Positions 5,088-34,277 of a stretch of DNA of 38,390 nt are shown in pieces. The position numbers were made by a program, and so were the translations under genes. How positions within the stretch are numbered: the first letter of the stretch is position 1; each line of letters begins with the position of its first letter. The notes under the pieces are model-generated. The model was not told the origin of the DNA and did not search any database. It saw only the letters and a list, made by a program, of their open reading frames with translations. The stretch is from IMG/VR virus record IMGVR_UViG_3300047497_000259, positions 1 to 38,390 of that record, one strand, 5' to 3'. This DNA comes from a virus.

Positions 5088-7382
5088 TTAGAGGTGAGCG
5101 GTAACAGCACCCAAGATGGTCGCGCCGTAGTAGCCCGTCATTCCTGCGGCACCGAGAGCGGGATGGATTCCATCTTGCGTGCGAGCCGAAGCCGTCAGCG
5201 CATTGACGCCGCTGACCTTCGTCATATCAATCACCGGATCGTGAAAGTAGTTGCTCGCGATGTCTACAGTCGCAGCAGCGGTGGCGAGAGACAGAGGCAA
5301 AGTTGAGGTTGCGGCGAAACCTGCGCCGTCATACTTCGGCATACAGGTGACCCACAGCACAGTCATGTTGGGATTGGCTTCGTGAAGAGTCTCGCCAACC
5401 CAGCGCATATTGCCGTACTGAGTGTTCGCGTTGGTTGCGTCACCGAACGCACCGAGCGGATACGCCTGATCGTTTGTGCCGAGTGCGAGGACAAGCAACT
5501 CAACTGGCGCGAGAACCTGAGCTAGTGTTTGCCCAAGAGCTTCACCACCCCAATTCAATCCACCTGTTGTTTGTCCGCTCTGCAAGTAACCGCCCTGAGC
5601 GCAACCACTCTGGGCGCTTACAGCAACGCCAGCGTCATACGTGCCAAGTGCTGAGCCGGGGGTGACAGTCTGAAAGCCTTCAAACGCCTGCACGAAAGAG
5701 CGACCGGGTCGTGCATCCTGCACCTGCTTGGTGAAACCGCGTTCCCAAAGAAGCTGCTCCCAACCCACGCCGAAGTTCGACGCAATCGAGTCACCCCAGA
5801 TGCCGATCTTGCGACCGAGCAGATAGGGCACGTAGTCATTAGCACTCTTGCCATACGGAAGAAGGTGATTAGGCAGTGTGGTTCCGTGCATGAAGATGCA
5901 GGAGCAAAACTGCGTGTTATTAGCGTTGGCGTCCGGCGTCCAGAAGTTTGTGTTTCCGTTCACCGACCACTGACATCCTTGCGAAGCGGTGAGGTTGCTA
6001 CCACTGAAGCGGATATAGGCCGCATCCGCAGGCATCGTGATGATGTAGCCGTTGGGAAGCCCTGTTGAGGGCAGCACGTCCACGCCGGGGCCGGGGTAGA
6101 CCGCGCCGGTTACGTTTCCGACCATGATCACGTTGTCGTTAATATCGTGAATGGTGTAGATAGCACCGCCGTATTCAGCGATCACAGCCGTTGGCTGTAC
6201 AGGGATCGCCGGAATGTTCGGGAAGCCAATGATGTATGGCTCACCGGCGATCACAGGAATCTTCGCGGTGTACTGATACGACGAAGGTTGTCCAGTGGCA
6301 ATCGTTCCGTTGCCTACTAGATAACCTCCGTAGGTCATAATCTGAGGCCCAATCAGGTTCTTCGCGGTGGAAAAATCGTTTAGAGCGCGGATGCTGCTGT
6401 AGTTGCGATCGATACGTGCGCCCACAGCTGCCACAGCCGCGTTTGTGGCAGCGATAGCAGCGTCGATAGCCACCGTGCTCGCAGGAGCGAAAGGCATCCA
6501 CGCGGGCATCGTCGAGCCGTTCACGATCTGGCATGTTGCAGGAGTAGCACTGTTGAGGGTCCAAGCGACGAAGGCCGCGTTGGCTGGGATCGCGATGGGC
6601 GTGTTGGCGGGAATCGCTGCGCCGGTGCTGTTTGCGAAGTTGCTTACATATGCGCCGCTCTGGTCGTAGAAGATGACCTCGCCACCCGCCCCATAGACCA
6701 ACGGCGCATTACAGATCATGAAGCCGCCGGAGTTGGCAGCCATCTTGCCAGTGACAACACCATTCGGGTAAGTGCCTCCACCAGAGAGTGAACCGTCCGA
6801 GTTGTAGTAGTAACCCGATTGGATCAACGATGGATCAAGCAGATTGGTGATCGGCTGCGTCGCGCGAATGGCGGCAAGCTGGGGCAAGGATGCTATGCCA
6901 GGAGCACCGGTAGCTCCATGCAGCGATGCCAACCAGTCGGCCTCGTCTAGAGTGCCACCATCCGATTGATAGACCTGATACGCAGATAATCCCTGAGGGC
7001 CGGGCTGGACTGGTAGCTGCGGTGCGAGGTTGGGTACGTAGGTGTCGAGGTTGAGGGGCTGGCCTTTGGTCTGCACCTTGGTATACACGGTGATGCGGCT
7101 GCCTGCACTGTCGTAGATCGTGATGCGGTAGCAGATGTCCGGCACACCAGTGGCCGAGGTGTCGGCGATCTGACTTCCGACTGGGATGCCACCATTGGCG
7201 ATCGGCAAGACCGCCGTCGTTGCAGAGGTGATGATGCCGCCGCTGCCTCCGGCGGGGACGTTGATGGGGATATCGTTTGCGTCCGTAGGGAGCACAGACA
7301 AGCTGCCTTCCGCGAGCAGATTGCCTAAGGCGTCCTGGATGCTTGCTGCTGTGATGGGCACGAAGCCCGGCTTGATCGACAT
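5088..7382 (-). CDS. Tail fibre/tailspike protein with C-terminal SGNH hydrolase domain
   Basis: 764 residues. The N-terminal ~120 residues form a beta-rich domain (VPITAASIQDALGN and onward) suited to attachment at the tail tip. Next comes a short collagen-like linker with GPQG and GATGAPG and the segment AYQVYQSDGGTLDEADWLAS, seen in many fibre linkers, then a long beta-structured middle. The last ~240 residues are an SGNH (GDSL-type) esterase: block I IGIWGDSIASN with the Ser nucleophile, block III LALGTND, and block V TQDGIHPALG with the Asp/His pair. SGNH domains on phage tails typically deacylate host surface polysaccharide during adsorption. The gene follows the J-like tip gene in the same direction. 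Confidence 0.8.
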   Translation of the reverse strand: MSIKPGFVPITAASIQDALGNLLAEGSLSVLPTDANDIPINVPAGGSGGIITSATTAVLPIANGGIPVGSQIADTSATGVPDICYRITIYDSAGSRITVYTKVQTKGQPLNLDTYVPNLAPQLPVQPGPQGLSAYQVYQSDGGTLDEADWLASLHGATGAPGIASLPQLAAIRATQPITNLLDPSLIQSGYYYNSDGSLSGGGTYPNGVVTGKMAANSGGFMICNAPLVYGAGGEVIFYDQSGAYVSNFANSTGAAIPANTPIAIPANAAFVAWTLNSATPATCQIVNGSTMPAWMPFAPASTVAIDAAIAATNAAVAAVGARIDRNYSSIRALNDFSTAKNLIGPQIMTYGGYLVGNGTIATGQPSSYQYTAKIPVIAGEPYIIGFPNIPAIPVQPTAVIAEYGGAIYTIHDINDNVIMVGNVTGAVYPGPGVDVLPSTGLPNGYIITMPADAAYIRFSGSNLTASQGCQWSVNGNTNFWTPDANANNTQFCSCIFMHGTTLPNHLLPYGKSANDYVPYLLGRKIGIWGDSIASNFGVGWEQLLWERGFTKQVQDARPGRSFVQAFEGFQTVTPGSALGTYDAGVAVSAQSGCAQGGYLQSGQTTGGLNWGGEALGQTLAQVLAPVELLVLALGTNDQAYPLGAFGDATNANTQYGNMRWVGETLHEANPNMTVLWVTCMPKYDGAGFAATSTLPLSLATAAATVDIASNYFHDPVIDMTKVSGVNALTASARTQDGIHPALGAAGMTGYYGATILGAVTAHL

Positions 7383-7421: not shown

Positions 7422-10400
7422 TTAGTTTCCATCGAATGGCAGGTCCGGCAGCGTCTTGAAGTTGTGAGTCCAGACGCCGTCGACGACGAGGTACTCGTGC
7501 GACGGTCCTTCGAGCTCGAGATACAGGACCTCGCCGGCTGTTTCTATGCGCGTAGCGATCATGGGCTGCATACCGGCGACCGTGTCGACACGCGAGCCCT
7601 CTGGGATGTTCTGCACCCATATGTGACGGCCGCTGTCGGTGAGCATGGGCAGCGAGCCCGAGCACTCGAACGCTTCGTAACCTTCGACCTCGACGCGGTA
7701 GATGTACTCGACGGGCGACCAGAAGGCCTGCCGTACGCGCTCCAGGCCTTCGCGGCCGATGAGGGAGACAGGTGCTCCCGCGTCGAAGAGGCGCTTGACC
7801 TCCTCGTTGGAGATGGCGCCGAAGTTCGAAGGCAGCACGGTGCCGCGCAGCGTGCAGGTGGGCGGAGGAGTGTTGCCTCCGCCAAATCCGCCGCCAGTTG
7901 CGCCCGCAGCGGCCGTCGCAACGCTGAGGCCGGTGGGCGTGAGGGCAACGTGGTTGTCGAGCTTGCAGGTCGCGACCGCGAGCGAATCGAGCGCAGAGGA
8001 CAAGAGCCCGGGTGTGCCGAGCGGCGCGGACGGAGCCGCGATGTGGACTCCGCCCAACACCACATCGTAGTAGAGCGACGCCACGTAGGTAGTGGATGCG
8101 GTGAGGCCGGTGATCGCGACCGAGCCATCTGGGATGACGGTAAACAGGCCGTCTGGCCAGAGGATGACGAGGTTCGTCCAGGTGATTGTGACAGTCGTCT
8201 CAGTCGACGTGTAGGCGATCGTGCCCGTCTCGGTCGGCAGGACCGAGCCTTGCGTGCGGAGCAGGCTGCTCGATCCGCCGGTGAAGATGTCCAGCACTTT
8301 GCCCTGCAGGTCGAGATCGGCCCACGCGCTGGGTGCTGTCTGCGCTGTCGCCGCGGACTCCAGCAGTAGGTGACTCAGAGTGACCGTCGAGCCAACGGGG
8401 AGGTTGAGGCCGTTGCCGCCGAAGGCCACCATCACCGCAACGCCGACGGTGCCCGCGGGGATTTGCATGGCTGCCGTGTTGTAGCGCGTGGTGGTCGGCT
8501 GGACCCCATTGAGCGTTGCGGCGATCTGCACAGTCGTCATCGCGCCTGAGGCGTCCTGGAACCCGATGCCGAGGATGAGCTGGCCGACGTTGGGAGCCGA
8601 GCTGGAGACGCAGCTATCGATCACGTATCCGGAGAGCATGAGGTACTGGCCAGCGATCCACTTGCTTGCAGGGATCACCTGGTACGCAACCTTCTGCGCG
8701 GCTGTGAGCGCGGTACCGGCGACGGTGTAGATCGCTTCGCCATCGTCCTCAAAGGTCGGCGCGAAGGTGTCGCCTGCACGCGGGCTGATGTTCCAGAACG
8801 TGAAGCCGTTCGCGAAGCTCGATCCGAGCAGCAGGTTAGGAGCGATGCCGACGGCGTTGATTGTGACCTCCGGAGCGGTCGTGATGGCCGCGTACAGATT
8901 GTTCGCGTCGAAGCCAACGACGCGATAGTCGTAGCTGTTGCCGACGTAGATCTGTCCCTGCCATGTCGTGGGCGCTCCGGTCAGCCGTGCGACGAGCTGA
9001 GGTAGTCCAGACGTGCCGGTGGGCGTGGCGAAGATGCCGACGCCGACGGTGTCCGGGCCGTTCTTCCAGGACAGGCTGGCGTAGCTTACATAGCTGCCGC
9101 CGACGAGCGTGAAGATCTCCGAGCCAGTGAGGCTGGTGACGCCGGGATTGCTGGTGGTGATCGCCGAGGTCTCACCGATGACGGGCGTGCCGACCGTGAA
9201 GACGTTCGGGTCGTAGTCGATCCACTCGATGGTGCTGCGGAAGTCGGTGGCCTTGGTGATGTTGGTGACGCGCACCAGCTTCACCGATCCGGTCTGGCCG
9301 TAGATGTATTGGCTGTAGTCGTCCGGGGCCTGAGCCAACGGCGTGGAAAGCACCAGCGCACCTGTGGCCGGGTCGATGCTGGCGACGGCTACGGAGTCCA
9401 ACACGTCGGTGTCGTAGAGCTGGTATGCGGCTCCGGCGGTGATGCTCACACCCTGCGGGAGTCCGCTGCCGATCGTGATCACGCCAGCGTCCGAGCCGAG
9501 GATGAGCGCATCGTAGCCATTGACCACGATGCGTGTGACGCGCTGCGCGTTGTCAAAGTTCGAGAGCTGCACCAGGAGCGTCGACGACGTGGGCGCAGTG
9601 ACAACGCCGAGCGTGCCCGAGTAGCGCAGGACCGCCGAGTGCTGCACCATCACCGAGTAGGGCGTGCCGGCCTCGAACGGAATGTCGTCGCGGTCCAGCA
9701 GCAGCCGCGTCGTCGTCGATCCAGGCAGTGTGCGACCGCCCCAACCCCACTGCGGGACATCGTGCTGCAGCGCGATCACGCTGCCAACGCGGCAGGCGAT
9801 GCCATCGGTGTCCGTGCGGAAGCTGCCCGTGCGCAGCAGGAACTGGTTGCTCCGCTGCTTGTAACGCGCGAGATGCCAGGCCTGTGCCGGCGACGTGACG
9901 CCAAGCGCCTTGATGCGAGTGTTCTTCACGACCACGCCGGCGTTCTGCTGGTCGGGGTCCATGTACACGATCGGGTTGTCGCTCTTGTAGTACCGGGTCG
10001 CGTCGGCGAACTGGATCTCGACCTGGTTGGCGCGATCGTCGATCGGGAGCCACACCTCGCTGAAGCTGTCCTGGATGATGTTGCCGACGGTGAACATCTG
10101 CACCGGCGCGTCGACCTCGGCATCGACAAAGACGCCATAATCGAGGCCGATGGGAACGATGGCGGCTCGGCTCATCTGAGCCACGCGATTCACCTGATTC
10201 CAGAGCACATCCTCGTTATCAAAGACGCCGTTGAAGACGTGCAGCCGAATGTTATTTCCGTTGCCGTCGGGGACGAGGGTGTCGTTCAGTTCCGCCCACG
10301 CAACCCACTCGTCGATGTATCGGCGCAGGTTCGCGGGCGTGATGCCGGGCCACGCACCGCCGCCGTAGAGGTCGTCGAGGAACATATCGGCAGCGACGAG

Positions 10401-12035
10401 CGCGGGATTGTCCTCCTCAAAGGCGAGCAGCTCCGCGGGCATCACTCCGGTGTCGACGGTGCGCAGCCCGTGCTCGATGAGCGCGGTGATGGTGAGGCTT
10501 GAGCCGGAGAGCTGGCTGGTGGCCAGCGCGCGCACACCGAGCAGGATCATGTTCGGGTACGTGAGATCGAGCATGGTGATCTCGTTGACCGAGTGAACCC
10601 ACATGTCCTGGCCGATGGTCGGGGACCAGTTATCGCCGAACGGCACATCGTCGTGCAGGCGCGTGCAACCGTACTTGGTGATGCGGACGTCGTACTTGGC
10701 CGGCGGCAGCCCGAGGATCTGCGTGCGGTTGTAGCAGGGCGTCGTCTGCGCCGCTACGAAGTCGACGTAGCCATCCGTCCATGTGAGGACGATGACGTTG
10801 TTCATGTTCACGTCGAGGAGCTGCCACTCGCCGTTGAAGGTCTTTGTGTAGGTGCTGTGGTTGCCGTTGGGTTCGAACGTCTCTACGGTCTGGGTGTACG
10901 TCTGCTTGTCGCCGGGAGTGTGAGGGCCGTCGTCGACGGTGAGGATGATGCCGGAGTTCGGCGGGAAGTCCGTGGCGACGAGGCCCCAGGCGTGAGGCAG
11001 GTAGAGGGAGCCGTCTGGATTCTTGTTCGTGACCGGCGTCGTGGTCTGCGGCTGCAGCGCCGATTGCCAGTTGTTCGTGCCGCTGACGGCGTACTCAACC
11101 TTGTAGGTGATGACGGCCAGAATGATGTTGCCGTCGCTGGTGTTGACGAATATGCCGTCCGTAAACTGGATGTCGACCTGCAGCGCTTGTGTGAGGTCGC
11201 CGGTACCGGGGACGACGACGGGAACGCCCGCCAGGCATTGCGTGTCTTGCGGATAGCCGTTCGAGATCTGATTGAACTGGCCGATCTCGGTCTGGTCGTT
11301 CGTGCCGAGGCGAATGTAGTACTGGCAATTCTGGTAGCTGCTGATGTCCTTTCCGTTGATCTGGATGCCGGTCAACGAGCGCGCAGGGCCAAAGCCGAAG
11401 CAGACGAGGACGTTGATCCACTGATCCGAGCCAGCGATCTCCGTGAAGCTGGAGATGATGTTTCCACCCCAAAGCATCTTGCCGTAGCCCTTGGGGATGA
11501 CAATGCCGGACTGCGCAAGCGATCGAGGCCCGTCAGGATCGTAGCTGGCGGAGCTGGTCTTATTGCTCGCAGCGTTGGGGCCGAGCACGGCCGAGATAAG
11601 CAGGTTGCCGACGATGTTCACAGCGCCAACGAGAATCGCGCTGGCCGTCGCCGAGGAGACACCGACGGTCCACGCGGTAGCCAGGTAGGCTGCAAGACCT
11701 GCACCTGCACCTGACGCGGCCAGCGCAATGGTGCCGGCCAGCAATGCAACGGAGGCCAGTGTACGCATGAGGCCCCCGCCCTTGATGGTCGGAGAGAGGA
11801 CGATATAGTCGCCGTCGCGAGGCGTGATCTCGGACCACAGGGAGCGCGGCCAGATTTCGCCGTTGATGCTGACCTTGACGTTCAGCGCCCATTCGTCGAA
11901 CTCAACGTCTGCGAGATCCTTGCGAACTTCGAGGAAGAGGATCTGCTCGAGCGTCTGCCCTTCGAATTCGATCTCCAAGGTTTCGCGATCGCGTGACGGC
12001 TCAATGGGGTTGGTGATCGTGATGACCTGAATCAC
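7422..12035 (-). CDS. Tail tip protein: I-like beta-grasp domain + J (host specificity) + C-terminal Hint domain
   Basis: 1537 residues from a GTG at 12035 that overlaps the upstream TGA (GTGA); the frame is open further upstream but that part is the shadow of the K and L genes. Residues 1-85 resemble the ubiquitin-like domain of lambda tail assembly protein I and end in IKGGG (86-88). Residues 90-152 are hydrophobic Ala/Gly-rich, as in gpI. The long middle part matches J-type host-specificity proteins: a tip region with GPARSLTGIQINGKDI, TAQSGIVIP-like beginnings of the central barrel domains, then fibronectin-like beta domains. After a GGGFGGG linker the protein ends with a Hint domain (1394-1525) and 12 further residues. 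It forms the central tail tip and contacts the receptor. Fusion of I and J, and the Hint end, are unusual. Confidence 0.85.
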   Translation of the reverse strand: MIQVITITNPIEPSRDRETLEIEFEGQTLEQILFLEVRKDLADVEFDEWALNVKVSINGEIWPRSLWSEITPRDGDYIVLSPTIKGGGLMRTLASVALLAGTIALAASGAGAGLAAYLATAWTVGVSSATASAILVGAVNIVGNLLISAVLGPNAASNKTSSASYDPDGPRSLAQSGIVIPKGYGKMLWGGNIISSFTEIAGSDQWINVLVCFGFGPARSLTGIQINGKDISSYQNCQYYIRLGTNDQTEIGQFNQISNGYPQDTQCLAGVPVVVPGTGDLTQALQVDIQFTDGIFVNTSDGNIILAVITYKVEYAVSGTNNWQSALQPQTTTPVTNKNPDGSLYLPHAWGLVATDFPPNSGIILTVDDGPHTPGDKQTYTQTVETFEPNGNHSTYTKTFNGEWQLLDVNMNNVIVLTWTDGYVDFVAAQTTPCYNRTQILGLPPAKYDVRITKYGCTRLHDDVPFGDNWSPTIGQDMWVHSVNEITMLDLTYPNMILLGVRALATSQLSGSSLTITALIEHGLRTVDTGVMPAELLAFEEDNPALVAADMFLDDLYGGGAWPGITPANLRRYIDEWVAWAELNDTLVPDGNGNNIRLHVFNGVFDNEDVLWNQVNRVAQMSRAAIVPIGLDYGVFVDAEVDAPVQMFTVGNIIQDSFSEVWLPIDDRANQVEIQFADATRYYKSDNPIVYMDPDQQNAGVVVKNTRIKALGVTSPAQAWHLARYKQRSNQFLLRTGSFRTDTDGIACRVGSVIALQHDVPQWGWGGRTLPGSTTTRLLLDRDDIPFEAGTPYSVMVQHSAVLRYSGTLGVVTAPTSSTLLVQLSNFDNAQRVTRIVVNGYDALILGSDAGVITIGSGLPQGVSITAGAAYQLYDTDVLDSVAVASIDPATGALVLSTPLAQAPDDYSQYIYGQTGSVKLVRVTNITKATDFRSTIEWIDYDPNVFTVGTPVIGETSAITTSNPGVTSLTGSEIFTLVGGSYVSYASLSWKNGPDTVGVGIFATPTGTSGLPQLVARLTGAPTTWQGQIYVGNSYDYRVVGFDANNLYAAITTAPEVTINAVGIAPNLLLGSSFANGFTFWNISPRAGDTFAPTFEDDGEAIYTVAGTALTAAQKVAYQVIPASKWIAGQYLMLSGYVIDSCVSSSAPNVGQLILGIGFQDASGAMTTVQIAATLNGVQPTTTRYNTAAMQIPAGTVGVAVMVAFGGNGLNLPVGSTVTLSHLLLESAATAQTAPSAWADLDLQGKVLDIFTGGSSSLLRTQGSVLPTETGTIAYTSTETTVTITWTNLVILWPDGLFTVIPDGSVAITGLTASTTYVASLYYDVVLGGVHIAAPSAPLGTPGLLSSALDSLAVATCKLDNHVALTPTGLSVATAAAGATGGGFGGGNTPPPTCTLRGTVLPSNFGAISNEEVKRLFDAGAPVSLIGREGLERVRQAFWSPVEYIYRVEVEGYEAFECSGSLPMLTDSGRHIWVQNIPEGSRVDTVAGMQPMIATRIETAGEVLYLELEGPSHEYLVVDGVWTHNFKTLPDLPFDGN
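7461..7856 (-). other. Hint (hedgehog/intein) domain at the C-terminus of the J-like protein
   Basis: Residues 1394-1525 of the tip protein. It starts with Cys1394 in TCTLRGTVLP (intein block A), has a middle part resembling block B (EAFECSGSLPMLTDSG) and ends with VLYLELEGPSHEYLVVDG followed by VWTHN (blocks F and G, penultimate His and terminal Asn). The block B TxxH histidine is replaced by Leu. The residue after Asn1525 is Phe, not Cys/Ser/Thr, so full protein splicing is not expected. The size (132 residues) and non-nucleophilic +1 residue fit bacterial intein-like domains that cleave or modify their host protein. Confidence 0.75.
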
Positions 12036-20486: not shown

Positions 20487-22469
20487 TTACTGCGGGATGC
20501 CGTCGAGGTTGACCGAGAAGGCCTGCGGATACAGGACACCGACATCGACGAGGAAGTTCGCGATGATGTTGATGAGCTGCTGGCGCGCCTTCGTGTACGG
20601 GTCGACGATGATCTCCATCGCGCCCCATTCGGCAATCGTGAGCCATCCCCAGTACGCGGCGATGGTGGCGTGGCAGGTGCCGCTTGCCGTGCCCTTGGTG
20701 AGGGTCTTAGGCAGCAGGTTCGACCAGTAGGCATCGTGGCCGTTGACGCGACCCTTGCCATCCTGGCCGTAGGTGAAGGTCGGGAGAGCAATGGTGTTCG
20801 ACAGCTCCGGCGTCTTTGCCAGGTAACCAGCGTTCTCGGGCGTGAACAGATACTTCGCGTCGCCCTGCATATCGGCGTTCGCGACCTGGATGGCCGTGAG
20901 CATGTCGACGCAGGTGCTCTTCGAGATCTGTCCACCGTTGGTGCCGATCGCGATGTTGTGGACGCCCGTGGTACCGAGGACGCCGACGGGAACCGCGCTG
21001 CCGCCCACGTTGAGCGCAGCCTTCTCGATGCCGATGGCAGCCTGTGCGACGAGTGCGTTACGCAGCTTAGCTTCGAGATCGATGGAGCTTTGCTGCATCA
21101 ACTGACGCGACCAGCTCGTCGAGGCCGTCGCTCCGAGAGGGCTGAACGGCACCTGCGCGAAGGTAGGGTCAACGTCTGCGTTGTCGACGCCCGGATTTTC
21201 ACCGACCCAGTTGAAGCCGACATCGCCGGTCATCTTCGGCAAAGCGAAGTTACCGGTGCAACCGCCGAGGAAGTCAGCGCCGAGCTTCGTGAGGCGAAGC
21301 GCGGGACGCAGAATGTCCAGGAAGGTCCCGAGCTCGGTGGCCACGGTAGCACCGCCGCCGGTCGTGGAACCAGGCGAGCCAGCCGTTACCGCGCGCAGAC
21401 GACGCTCGGCTTCGGTGAGGCGAAAGACGGGCTCATTCGTCGGGATGAAGATGCCACCAGTATCGCGACCGAGAGTCTTTGCGATGGTGTTCGAGATCTC
21501 GCGCTCGAGGCCAGCCTCTTCAGCCTTCGTCCCAGCGGGTGCCGAGATCGAACGCATGATGCGAAGAAAGCTGTACTGGCCGCGCTCCTTATCGGACAGC
21601 ACGACAGGGCTACCGGACTGCAGGGCGGGGTTCAACTCGCGCTGCTTGTTGAGGACCATCGCGGCAACGGTGTCGCGCTCGGTGCCTTCACCGATGGCCT
21701 TGTCTGCAACTTCGCGGGTGACGATGTCGGGGTACTGACGGGCGAGGAGAGCGATGCCAGCGGTGCGCTCGCGTTCCTTCTTCATGTTGTCGGCGCCTAC
21801 TTCGATTTCGGGGGGCATATGTCTCTCCTGTATCGGTTCCGGGGTGACCGGAGGGGTTGCCGGTAGGCCTGCAAAGCGCACCGGGTACTGCGGAACTGTC
21901 GAAAGGTCGCGACCAACGCCGACCGAGGGATCTGCTGGGATGGCGACGAAACTTACCTCAACCGGCTCCCAGGAGTCTGCCTCATAGGTGCCGAGGTAGT
22001 TTTCGTCTTCGTCGTCGGTGGGGTCGATGTCGGCGACTCGGCTTTCACTGTGGACGATGTAGCCAACGGAGATGAAAGGAAGCGTACCCTCCCGGACTTC
22101 GGTGGCAGTGTCCTTCCCGAACTGAGTAGAGTTGAATCGGACATTGCCGCTCCCTTTCTTGTCGGTGATCTGACCGTCCTGCAAGATGCCCGCGCGCTGG
22201 TTGATGTCGTGATTCACCAGCACGGAGATACCCTGACTCAGGCGGTCAGTTTTTACCGCTTCGCCAGAGTGCTTGAGGACTTCGTACCACCAAAGGCCAC
22301 CCCAGCTCATGCGCTTCACTGGATTTGAGGAAGAGAATGAGATCGCAACGAGAGTCTGGTCCGCGCCTTCGGCAGGAGCTTCGGCGCGAAGGTCGAACGC
22401 GCGATGTTGCATGGGTAGCTTCGCGGGCAGCTGCTTCTCGAAGCGGGTTTTCAAAGTGGTAGGAGGCAT
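20487..22469 (-). CDS. HK97-type prohead protease fused to major capsid protein
   Basis: 660 residues. Residues 1-190 are an HK97-type (U35) prohead protease: His87 in LVNHDIN, Ser134 in LPFISVGY, and WEPVEVSFVAIPADPSVGVG closing the fold. A Pro-rich linker (204-213) leads to an acidic helical scaffold-like delta region (about 220-290) and then the HK97-fold capsid (SPGSTTGGGATVATELG, TGDVGFNWVGENP, AKYLFTPENAGYLA). The protease normally removes the delta region after shell assembly. AGGAGA stands 4-9 bases before Met218, so free scaffold-capsid can also be made from an internal start. The annotated ATG at 22469 lacks a clear ribosome-binding site. Confidence 0.9.
   Translation of the reverse strand: MPPTTLKTRFEKQLPAKLPMQHRAFDLRAEAPAEGADQTLVAISFSSSNPVKRMSWGGLWWYEVLKHSGEAVKTDRLSQGISVLVNHDINQRAGILQDGQITDKKGSGNVRFNSTQFGKDTATEVREGTLPFISVGYIVHSESRVADIDPTDDEDENYLGTYEADSWEPVEVSFVAIPADPSVGVGRDLSTVPQYPVRFAGLPATPPVTPEPIQERHMPPEIEVGADNMKKERERTAGIALLARQYPDIVTREVADKAIGEGTERDTVAAMVLNKQRELNPALQSGSPVVLSDKERGQYSFLRIMRSISAPAGTKAEEAGLEREISNTIAKTLGRDTGGIFIPTNEPVFRLTEAERRLRAVTAGSPGSTTGGGATVATELGTFLDILRPALRLTKLGADFLGGCTGNFALPKMTGDVGFNWVGENPGVDNADVDPTFAQVPFSPLGATASTSWSRQLMQQSSIDLEAKLRNALVAQAAIGIEKAALNVGGSAVPVGVLGTTGVHNIAIGTNGGQISKSTCVDMLTAIQVANADMQGDAKYLFTPENAGYLAKTPELSNTIALPTFTYGQDGKGRVNGHDAYWSNLLPKTLTKGTASGTCHATIAAYWGWLTIAEWGAMEIIVDPYTKARQQLINIIANFLVDVGVLYPQAFSVNLDGIPQ
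21816..21827 (-). promoter_or_regulatory. Internal ribosome-binding site and start for free capsid protein
   Basis: Within the fusion gene, AGGAGA (21827-21822 on the minus strand) is followed by CAT and then ATG at 21818, codon Met218, exactly at the end of the Pro-rich linker after the protease domain. The product from here would be 443 residues: delta region plus capsid. Its Shine-Dalgarno is better than that of the full-length gene. Confidence 0.65.
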
Positions 22470-31057: not shown

Positions 31058-31665
31058 CAGTTCGACCCTCTGAACTGCGCCACGTTCGGGCAGGTTTCGT
31101 AATGGCTCTTGCAGCCGCTCACGTCATGGGGCATCGGGTCGAAGGCGGCTTTGCGACCCTTTGGCGTCACCCACCACTCGACCTCGCGCAGGCAGGCGGG
31201 GCATGGTCCGCTCTCACAAAACTTGTAGCTGCCATGCTCCATCCCGCGACGGGTGGATGGCAGCGTGACATTCACGCCAGCGGCCTTCTTAGCCGTCTCG
31301 ATGTCCAGTACTTTCTGGGCCTCGGCGGTCTTGATGTTGTGGTCAAAGGTGTGGCGCGGGCAGAATGCGCTGCCGTCCTGCGCCGCGAGGCCACAGACAA
31401 AGACCTCCTGCTTCACCTTCTTGCCGTTCTTCTGTGGAACCAGCTTGTTCTTGGTCAATTGGCAACGTTGAGGCTCACCCATGTTCATCTCCCTGCTTTC
31501 TGCGTAAATCTCGATCGGTGTTGGAGGCTTGCGAACCTCGTCCAGGCGGTTGTGCAGTTCGGCGTCACACTCAGCGCAGACACGGGCAGCGATACCGGCA
31601 ACAGTCACAACGCCGACTCCCGTGTCTTCCTCGCGTAAGTGCTCACACCGCTGCTCTGTCGTCAT
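31057..31665 (-). CDS. Hypothetical cysteine-rich protein
   Basis: 202 residues with ten or so cysteines in pairs: CEHLREEDTG, VCAECDAEL, CQLTKNKLVPQK, VCGLAAQDGSAFCPRH, FCESGPCPACL and CKSHYETCP. Probably two or three small zinc-binding units separated by helical linkers. No enzyme motif seen. It overlaps the helicase-methyltransferase stop (ATGA) and the next gene start by one base, so it belongs to the tightly coupled early operon. Confidence 0.55.
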   Translation of the reverse strand: MTTEQRCEHLREEDTGVGVVTVAGIAARVCAECDAELHNRLDEVRKPPTPIEIYAESREMNMGEPQRCQLTKNKLVPQKNGKKVKQEVFVCGLAAQDGSAFCPRHTFDHNIKTAEAQKVLDIETAKKAAGVNVTLPSTRRGMEHGSYKFCESGPCPACLREVEWWVTPKGRKAAFDPMPHDVSGCKSHYETCPNVAQFRGSN

Positions 31666-34277
31666 GACGCCGTGGCTAACTCCTCTGGCAAAGCTTCCAT
31701 CTCGGGCGTCAAGTCGAAGAGCGTCGGAGTGTTCATCTCACGCTCAGCCATCTCTAGGTACTTGCAGCCGTCAAGAAAGTAGCCGTTGTTCAACTCCGCC
31801 GCCCTGCCCTTGCGCTTCAACTTCAGCGCGCGGTACGGCACCGTCATCAGACCGCCAAACGGGTCGTAGACCGTCTCCCCTGGCTCGGTGAACTGGATGA
31901 TGGCTCGGTCGGCGATGTCGAACTGCATTGGGCATAGGTGCATCTCTTTGCCCTTGGCGTGCTGTGCGCCGTTCAGCGTTAGCATCCGCGTCACGTCGCT
32001 CCAAACCTCGGGGTGCCAGCTCTGTGGCTGCAGCAGCATGAACGTCACCGGCAAAATTCGCTTCGCCTCCAAGGCCTCGCCGAGCTTTACATGGTGCTCG
32101 AAGTCGTAAACATTCTCGAGGTTGTACTGCCGGAAGAGTTTGAAGATGGCGTCATGTGGCAGGGCTGCCAGCTCTTCTGGGGTCAGCAGGCGCTCACCGC
32201 TGGACCGCGTGAAGCCGTGCGCATCCACCTGCCAGCGCGCTCGCGAGTAGCCCGTACCGGGAGCGATCGGCAGATCACGCGAGAAAGGAACCTCTTCCCC
32301 ATCTGCAGTCAGGCAGTTCGGCTTGCTCTTCTTTACCGGTTTGTCGGCATAACTGTTATTGCTCTCGCTGGGCGGTTTGCGGAACAGCAGCAGGTACTCA
32401 GGCATACCGACACCCATCTTTGTGCCGTCCTTGCACTGCTCACTCCAGCCGAGACGATACGTCTGGTTGTTCTCCCGCACCACGTCCGTCACGATGGTCT
32501 TCATGCCCATATAGGCGAAGCCGTGCTTCATGAAGTGCTCGGTGACGCGCATATGGAACGGGTAGACCGTCTGGAAGCCGAGGCCTGTCATGCCGCCCGG
32601 GACAATGCGGTCCTTTACGTGGATAGCGGCGACGCGCCCCGGCTTCAGCGTGCGCAGCAGTTCGGGCGTCAGGAAGTCCATCTGCTCGAAGAAGTGCTCA
32701 TTCGAGTCGGTGTGGCCCATATCCGCGTAGTTCGGGCTGTATTCGTATTGCGTGCTGAAGGGTATGGAGGTCAGCACCAGGTCGACGCTGCCGGTGGCCA
32801 TCTTCTTCGTCTCGGGGATGCAATCGTTGTGCGCGACGACATAGTTCTCGCCGCGGACCTCGACGCGCTCCACGCCCATCGACCGGGACAGCTCTTTCAG
32901 CATGTCGGCGTGGTTCAGGCCGTACTCTCGTATGATTTCGCTCATCTTTTGAACCGTCTCCTCGTATTGAGCCCACTTCTCCAGCAGCCGGCGCTTTACC
33001 TCACGCTCACTCTCTGCGTAGATCACGTCGACAATCACCGGCCGCGGTTGCAGGAACCGGTAGCAGCGATGGATAGCCTGAATGAAGTCGTTGAATTTGA
33101 AGCCGATGCCGACGAAGATCTCGCGGCTACAGTGGCGTTGGAAGTTGCAGCCGGAGCCAGCGATGACCGGCTTTGCGGCAAGGTACTGAATCTCGCCATC
33201 GGAGAACTGGATGATGGCGCGCTCACGCTCGTCGAGGTCCTGCGTACCGTACACGCTCACCGACTGCGGCAGAGCGCGCTCGATAGCATGGCGTTCAGCC
33301 TCGAGATCGTGCCATAGCAGAAAGTGCTCATCCGGCATCTGGCGGATAATCTGCAGCATCTTGCCGACCCGAGCATCAAGAGTGTCGCGCTTCTCACGCG
33401 CGGCCTGCACGACGCCCTTCACGGCGCCGCGGAACATTGAATGCTGGCCGTTGGTCTCCACCGTGGCCACGCTGTGGTCGACAGGAATCTCATGCCAGCG
33501 AACTTCCAGAGCTGGCAGAGTGTAGCCTTCGTCCGAGCAACCAATGTCGGACGGCTTCTGCAGGAATACCGCCCAGGATGCGACCCACAGCCAGAACTCG
33601 CGCACCTTGTGCGGGTGCAGGGTGAGCTGGTCGGCTTTCTCGCTGTTGCGTTTGAAGAAGCGCGTCTTCGCCTGCCCGACATCCATGATGCCGAGGAATG
33701 CGGCATACGCCAGCAGCTCGATAGTCTCGTTAGGGTCAGGGATGGCCGTGGCGACAAAGCGGTAGGCGACCCCTTCGTATACCCGCATGAACTCGCGGAA
33801 CGTCTTTGTGCCGCCGAAGCCGCGCAGTACGCTCGCCTCATCCAGGCTGCACACGTCGAAGGCGGTTGGGTCGAGTTTGCCGTCGCGGATGGTCTCGAAG
33901 TTGGCGAGATACAGGCCTGGCTCCGAGGCATCGTCGATAGAGCGGATGAAGGTGATCTTCAGCCCGAGCATCTCGGCGTCCCGCTTGAACTCCTGCCGTA
34001 CGCCGAGCGGCGCGGTTATCAATCCGCGTTTTCCACCACTCTTCAACAGGAGCAGTCGGCACACCTCAAGCTGAATGACGCTCTTCCCGAGGCCAAACTT
34101 GGCGAAGATGGCGCGGCGCCCGCCTGCCACAGCCCACTGCACAAGCAGCTTCTGGTGCGGCTTCAGGATGGGATTGATCTCATCGAGGGATATAGCGAAG
34201 CCCCAGCGCTGAGGGATAGGCAGTTTGGCCTCAAGGAACTTGCGGTACTTGGTCAGCATTGCAGTCTTAGGGCTCAT
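31662..34277 (-). CDS. SNF2-like helicase fused to N4/N6-type DNA methyltransferase
   Basis: 871 residues. Residues 1-440: superfamily 2 ATPase with Walker A (AKFGLGKSVIQLEV, about 59-72), LDEAS (motif II, 145-149), VATAIPDPNE (motif III), KPVIAGSGCNFQ (motif V) and QAIHRCYR (motif VI). From about 480: a DNA amino-methyltransferase with SVDLVLTSIPFSTQYEYS (motif IV, SIPF in place of the more common DPPY), HVKDRIVPGG, RENNQTYRLGW and, near the C-terminus, TVYDPFGGLMTVPYRALKLK (motif I, SAM binding). Motif IV before motif I indicates the beta class. It may methylate phage DNA against host restriction, with the helicase part moving along DNA. No nuclease domain is visible. Confidence 0.85.
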   Translation of the reverse strand: MSPKTAMLTKYRKFLEAKLPIPQRWGFAISLDEINPILKPHQKLLVQWAVAGGRRAIFAKFGLGKSVIQLEVCRLLLLKSGGKRGLITAPLGVRQEFKRDAEMLGLKITFIRSIDDASEPGLYLANFETIRDGKLDPTAFDVCSLDEASVLRGFGGTKTFREFMRVYEGVAYRFVATAIPDPNETIELLAYAAFLGIMDVGQAKTRFFKRNSEKADQLTLHPHKVREFWLWVASWAVFLQKPSDIGCSDEGYTLPALEVRWHEIPVDHSVATVETNGQHSMFRGAVKGVVQAAREKRDTLDARVGKMLQIIRQMPDEHFLLWHDLEAERHAIERALPQSVSVYGTQDLDERERAIIQFSDGEIQYLAAKPVIAGSGCNFQRHCSREIFVGIGFKFNDFIQAIHRCYRFLQPRPVIVDVIYAESEREVKRRLLEKWAQYEETVQKMSEIIREYGLNHADMLKELSRSMGVERVEVRGENYVVAHNDCIPETKKMATGSVDLVLTSIPFSTQYEYSPNYADMGHTDSNEHFFEQMDFLTPELLRTLKPGRVAAIHVKDRIVPGGMTGLGFQTVYPFHMRVTEHFMKHGFAYMGMKTIVTDVVRENNQTYRLGWSEQCKDGTKMGVGMPEYLLLFRKPPSESNNSYADKPVKKSKPNCLTADGEEVPFSRDLPIAPGTGYSRARWQVDAHGFTRSSGERLLTPEELAALPHDAIFKLFRQYNLENVYDFEHHVKLGEALEAKRILPVTFMLLQPQSWHPEVWSDVTRMLTLNGAQHAKGKEMHLCPMQFDIADRAIIQFTEPGETVYDPFGGLMTVPYRALKLKRKGRAAELNNGYFLDGCKYLEMAEREMNTPTLFDLTPEMEALPEELATAS

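Follow-up and report, generated by a model that had tools for sequence, protein, structure and literature searches.

A predicted Hint domain as an optional module in the C-terminal tail of a phage tail-tip protein

The Hint fold is known elsewhere as a domain that cuts or splices its own protein chain, and its predicted presence at the very end of a phage tail-tip protein raises the question of what such a domain would do there. The locus lies in a 38,390-base IMG/VR contig (the window, meaning the whole stretch of DNA analysed here) from a temperate lambda-like siphophage with genes for an integrase, a GpA-type terminase, a portal, a protease-capsid fusion, a tape measure, an NlpC/P60 protein, J and a fibre-like protein. 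In its body J is a central tail fibre protein of the lambda type (phrog_31, central tail fiber J, E 6e-92), with family matches to TipJ and to Pfam Phage-tail_3 and FNIII-A_GpJ. The features discussed below are as follows.

7422–12035, minus strand: gene for the tail-tip (central tail fibre) protein J, GTG start, 1,537 amino acids
7875–7895, minus strand: Gly-rich linker GGGFGGG, J residues 1381–1387, before the Hint domain (translation)
7461–7856, minus strand: predicted Hint domain, J Cys1394–Asn1525, 132 amino acids (AlphaFold2 model, Foldseek, VIA-align)
7854–7856, minus strand: Cys1394, equivalent of the intein position 1 nucleophile (invariant in 8/8; structure alignment)
7650–7661, minus strand: block B SGSL, TxxH-like, His replaced by Leu in the window copy (alignment)
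7497–7499, minus strand: block F His1513 (invariant in 8/8)
7461–7466, minus strand: block G His1524-Asn1525, with the Asn1525 codon at 7461–7463 (invariant in 8/8; structure alignment)
7425–7460, minus strand: 12-residue tail after Asn1525 (FKTLPDLPFDGN, then stop), +1 Phe, +2 Lys (translation)
5088–7382, minus strand: gene after J, encoding a fibre-like protein of 764 amino acids with a GDSL/SGNH hydrolase domain (Pfam Lipase_GDSL_2, E 1.7e-9)

J residues 1–87 (11775–12035) weakly match tail assembly protein I and ThiS, as if lambda-type I and J were fused; a 660-residue protein (20487–22469) combines prohead serine protease (S78) and capsid domains; and an 871-residue protein (31662–34277) matches DNA helicase families over its first part, the second part matching N6/N4 DNA methylase. 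A hexapeptide-repeat transferase-like protein near the contig end (37001–38107) is possibly encoded by a lysogenic-conversion gene.

Fold and active-site residues

The initial annotation had placed an intein-like domain of 132 residues, beginning with Cys and ending in His-Asn, behind the GGGFGGG linker, and the J translation agrees with it exactly: the linker is followed by NTPPPT and then Cys1394 (segment ahead of the domain, GGGFGGGNTPPPT). Single-sequence searches with the C-terminal part of J gave no match in Pfam, PHROGs or NCBIfam, and the Pfam intein model PF14890 had no match in the window. Homologues were gathered stepwise from IMG/VR into an alignment of eight sequences (A6), the other seven being 43–52% identical to the window domain. 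Searched as a profile, the family had a single PDB match, a weak one to the VidaL intein (E 0.018). Armadillo-repeat PDB matches obtained with the single sequence (E 1.7e-5, residues 11–76) disappeared with the family profile and were taken as chance.

Structure prediction gave a clearer answer. With the eight-sequence alignment, AlphaFold2 returned a model of pLDDT 87.6 and pTM 0.81, made up largely of beta strands and having a single clear helix; without an alignment the pLDDT was 33.8. Foldseek retrieved 57 PDB matches at E <= 0.001, led by the VidaL intein (6vgv, E 4e-8), and the 50 listed were all intein, bacterial intein-like (BIL) or Hedgehog Hint structures. The same held for VIA-align 2, in which 88 chains reached Z >= 8 and the 50 listed were again all of these kinds; VidaL was best (Z 18.0, 134 residues, 1.8 A), and the BIL domain of Clostridium thermocellum (2lwy) and Hedgehog (1at0) reached Z 16.4 and Z 14.4. 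Model residue 10 (Cys1394) is where the alignments start, at residue 1 of the RecA and MchDnaB inteins and residue 258 of Hedgehog, and model residue 141 (Asn1525) is where they end, at the terminal residue of both inteins. The model thus shows a Hint horseshoe whose predicted ends coincide with Cys1 and with His-Asn, and the proposal of a Hint domain at the J C-terminus, which a different predicted fold would have overturned, stands. A confident model, matches to intein structures and the sharing of the domain by seven other phages argue against a chance resemblance, and we regard the predicted fold of J 1394–1525 and its boundaries as settled.

Although the eight members differ by about half their residues, Cys1, the block-B Ser (at the Thr position of TxxH), the block-F His and the terminal Thr-His-Asn are invariant in all eight. 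Given 33 invariant columns among 132, Cys1, the block-F His, His and Asn would all be invariant by chance with p about 0.003. The block-B His is less constant: the position reads L,H,H,H,M,L,H,H (window first), so that five members carry SxSH and three have lost the His, including the window copy with SGSL. The +1 residue (F,M,W,M,L,Q,M,A) is never Cys, Ser or Thr; +2 is Lys in 7/8 members, and the tails after Asn run to 4–13 residues. The annotation had read Phe at +1 and Leu in place of the block-B His correctly for the window copy. According to a 2014 review, the block-B His is the most conserved intein residue, and of two inteins that lack it one was a pseudogene and the other, Tko CDC21-1, compensated with a Lys (PMC4031507).

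Set against the known classes, the domain has the position 1 nucleophile of the Hint superfamily (Cys1394), and the window has SGSL at the usual, not universal, block B TxxH. The C-terminal His-Asn and a +1 residue other than Cys, Ser or Thr are those of type A BIL domains. Two class 1 intein features are absent: none of the eight members has a +1 Cys, Ser or Thr, and the host site is a Gly-rich, poorly conserved J tail rather than a conserved insertion site. Class 3 inteins were set aside, as Cys1 is present and the F:4 position, by motif alignment, reads Y,A,H,H,C,A,H,R; so were polymorphic-toxin PT-HINT domains, there being no toxin domain and a stop codon 12 residues after Asn1525. A large C-extein made by readthrough into the next gene was also rejected: the frame is the same, but a TAA and two TGA codons intervene. 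By these sequence features the J family appears type-A-BIL-like, with the window copy departing from it in block B.

Distribution, transfer and constraint

Eight phages, none of them cultured, carry the domain at the J C-terminus. A J-body profile recovered 52 related loci, which gave 34 distinct J proteins after removal of near-copies and incomplete J genes; eight of the 34 carry the domain, the relatives having been sampled by pattern scans, so that frequencies are those of the sample. Each of these records has one copy in J and none elsewhere. No relative of the domain was found by tblastn of 50,697 phage and 72,556 plasmid records or in two scans of 84,980 species genomes, and none of the isolate phage records searched has it. 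On the J-body tree its distribution implies at least six gains or losses, a figure stable over bootstraps.

Comparison of J ends shows where the domain sits. L029, the sister of the window by J body, has no such domain and ends in ...GGSGGGGGGGGGGSNPDPILPVGPVRVSTE, and six other Hint-less proteins (L041, L046, L048, L055, L045 and L070) end in a Gly/Ser-rich linker and a short tail. By a simple Gly/Ser count, the domain occurs only in linker-bearing J proteins (8 of about 16, against 0 of about 18 without a linker). In L066, from the same phage as L007, the AQNL after His-Asn equals the AQNL end of Hint-less L070, and a 37-base stretch of DNA shortly downstream is 78% alike, which suggests insertion into a pre-existing tail. 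Between L044 and L045, homology breaks off close to the linker and returns at the stop codon of J, so the domain may carry some tails along with it. The Hint domain is thus a module that J can have or lack, inserted in its flexible Gly-rich tail. It is not essential for J, being absent from close relatives, and its loss or removal is evidently tolerated, since a comparable Gly linker and short tail close many J proteins that have no Hint domain. The location given by the annotation holds, with the qualification that the domain is not a fixed part of the tail tip. In a separate set of Hint-less proteins (L032, L033, L034, L049 and L054), J ends in quite different segments, which marks the J C-terminus as a variable slot in this phage group.

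The suggestion that the domain forms the receptor-contacting end is also in doubt, because a distinct fibre-like protein, with a GDSL hydrolase domain, is the product of the next gene (5088–7382). The N-terminal domain of that protein is common to the gene after J in most relatives; a specific pairing with Hint was rejected, as this domain occurs at 8/8 Hint-bearing loci but also at most Hint-less ones. At L030, L042, L043, L044, L045, L048, L066, L070 and other loci the gene after J begins with an apparent Sec signal peptide (for example MRKLALILPPILCLLFAPVCFSQ), odd for a virion fibre and absent from the window and L004 versions.

The module has moved between J lineages. The L066 J body lies among Hint-less proteins on short branches and is only about 19–42% identical, region by region, to the bodies of L012, L014 and L018, whereas its Hint domain is 63–66% identical to theirs. 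Synonymous sites are saturated, so the transfer was not very recent. In the close pair L014/L018, dN/dS is 0.16 for the Hint domain and 0.13 for the J body, indicating purifying selection on the domain in that one pair. The window and L028 give 0.66 and 0.38, a rough estimate at dS near 0.8 that points to weaker constraint. The window domain also sits on a long branch (0.87, against 0.21–0.24 for its J body) and lacks the Cys of an otherwise conserved RWCS motif as well as the block-B His. The window copy is evolving fast, yet it keeps Cys1, the block-F His and His-Asn. In L008, a near-identical copy of L007, a TGA stands 12 codons into the domain, either a real variant or a sequencing error.

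Proposed self-cleavage and its alternatives

Self-cleavage is the likeliest activity, as the C-terminal cleavage residues do not vary across the family and no member has a nucleophile at +1, without which splicing in the ordinary way is not to be expected. In inteins the block-F His assists Asn cyclisation. We propose that the folded Hint domain would process its own two termini. With the aid of His1524 and block-F His1513, Asn1525 would cyclise and cut off the 12-residue tail; where the N-terminal step works, Cys1394 would form a thioester with the linker, and its resolution by water or a small thiol would release the domain. The product would be a J ending in a Gly-rich tail, much like the Hint-less relatives, which fits the dispensability of the domain. 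In the window copy C-terminal cleavage should still be feasible, and the loss of the block-B His suggests that the N-terminal step may be impaired: slow, compensated or lost.

That J carries an optional, self-cleaving module of the type A BIL kind, which trims the J end, is a reading that we believe and doubt in about equal measure, with the chemistry and the trimming its inferred parts. The Hint fold with correct termini, the invariant residues, purifying selection in L014/L018 and the tails of the Hint-less relatives count for self-cleavage. Against it count the block-B position, Leu in the window and Met or Leu in two other members, and the window copy's long branch, weaker constraint and loss of the RWCS Cys. 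Trimming in particular has no evident reason, so short is the tail that would be removed.

The main rival, tentative and more plausible for the window copy than for the family, is that an intein or BIL domain landed in a dispensable J tail and is now an inert appendage or a plain binding domain. Decay would account for a +1 nucleophile absent in 8/8 and a block-B His lost in 3/8, for the fast evolution of the window copy, for the patchy presence among J proteins and for the nonsense codon in L008. It sits poorly with Cys1, block-F His, His and Asn invariant in 8/8, window included, with the low L014/L018 dN/dS and with the block-B His kept in five members.

Two further readings are less likely. 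Splicing without a +1 nucleophile, in which the tail's freed amino group attacks the N-terminal thioester after Asn cyclisation and joins linker to tail, is improbable: it is the proposed route for type A BIL splicing, but cleavage products dominate in BILs (PMC4031507), and the L066/L070 match in tail and downstream DNA is offset by the L044/L045 tails without clear homology and by the missing block-B His in the window. Still more doubtful is a Hedgehog-like attachment, in which an outside nucleophile attacks the J-Hint thioester and the J end is joined to a lipid, a sugar, a fibre protein or a cell-surface amine. The C-terminal position, the invariant Cys1, the flexible Gly-rich linker and the match to 1at0 (Z 14.4) suit it; a sterol-recognition-like region is missing, with only 12 residues after the domain in the window and 4–13 in the family, His-Asn is kept although attachment does not need it, the window has lost the block-B His, and no partner was identified. 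Its specific form, covalent joining of J's Gly-rich end through the thioester to another virion protein or the cell surface at adsorption or assembly, we consider very unlikely; if true, it would give a phage tail tip with a self-activating chemical linker.

Relation to known Hint systems

The Hint family in J is one in which some members keep and some lack the residue most conserved in inteins, and in which close relatives supply natural pairs with and without the domain. Two questions thereby become testable: whether a phage trims or modifies its own tail tip by self-cleavage, and what becomes of a Hint domain whose host needs no splicing. Protein engineering, too, may gain small new self-cleaving domains from the family. 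No Hint domain in J is described in the open-access literature searched; the phage inteins named there and in the structure matches are mostly in DNA-handling enzymes (terminase, helicase, polymerase, ribonucleotide reductase).

The best match to the J domain by structure and by sequence profile is VidaL, a split intein that splices, whereas the J domain is continuous and has no +1 nucleophile. The Hedgehog Hog domain is likewise a Hint fold at a protein's C-terminal end, with Cys258 aligned to the J Cys, but the J domain has no sterol-recognition region and ends in His-Asn and a short tail. The PT-HINT domains of polymorphic toxins stand close to the C-terminal end of large surface or delivery proteins; the J domain is alike in location and differs in that 4–13 residues follow, with no toxin domain and no Pfam match. 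Type A BIL domains are alike in fold (a solved BIL domain is that of C. thermocellum), in their C-terminal His-Asn, in having no +1 nucleophile and in sitting at a poorly conserved part of the host protein. The J domain differs in its host, a phage tail-tip protein, in lying nearly at the chain end, in having lost the block-B His in the window and two other members, and in being known from sequence and a model.
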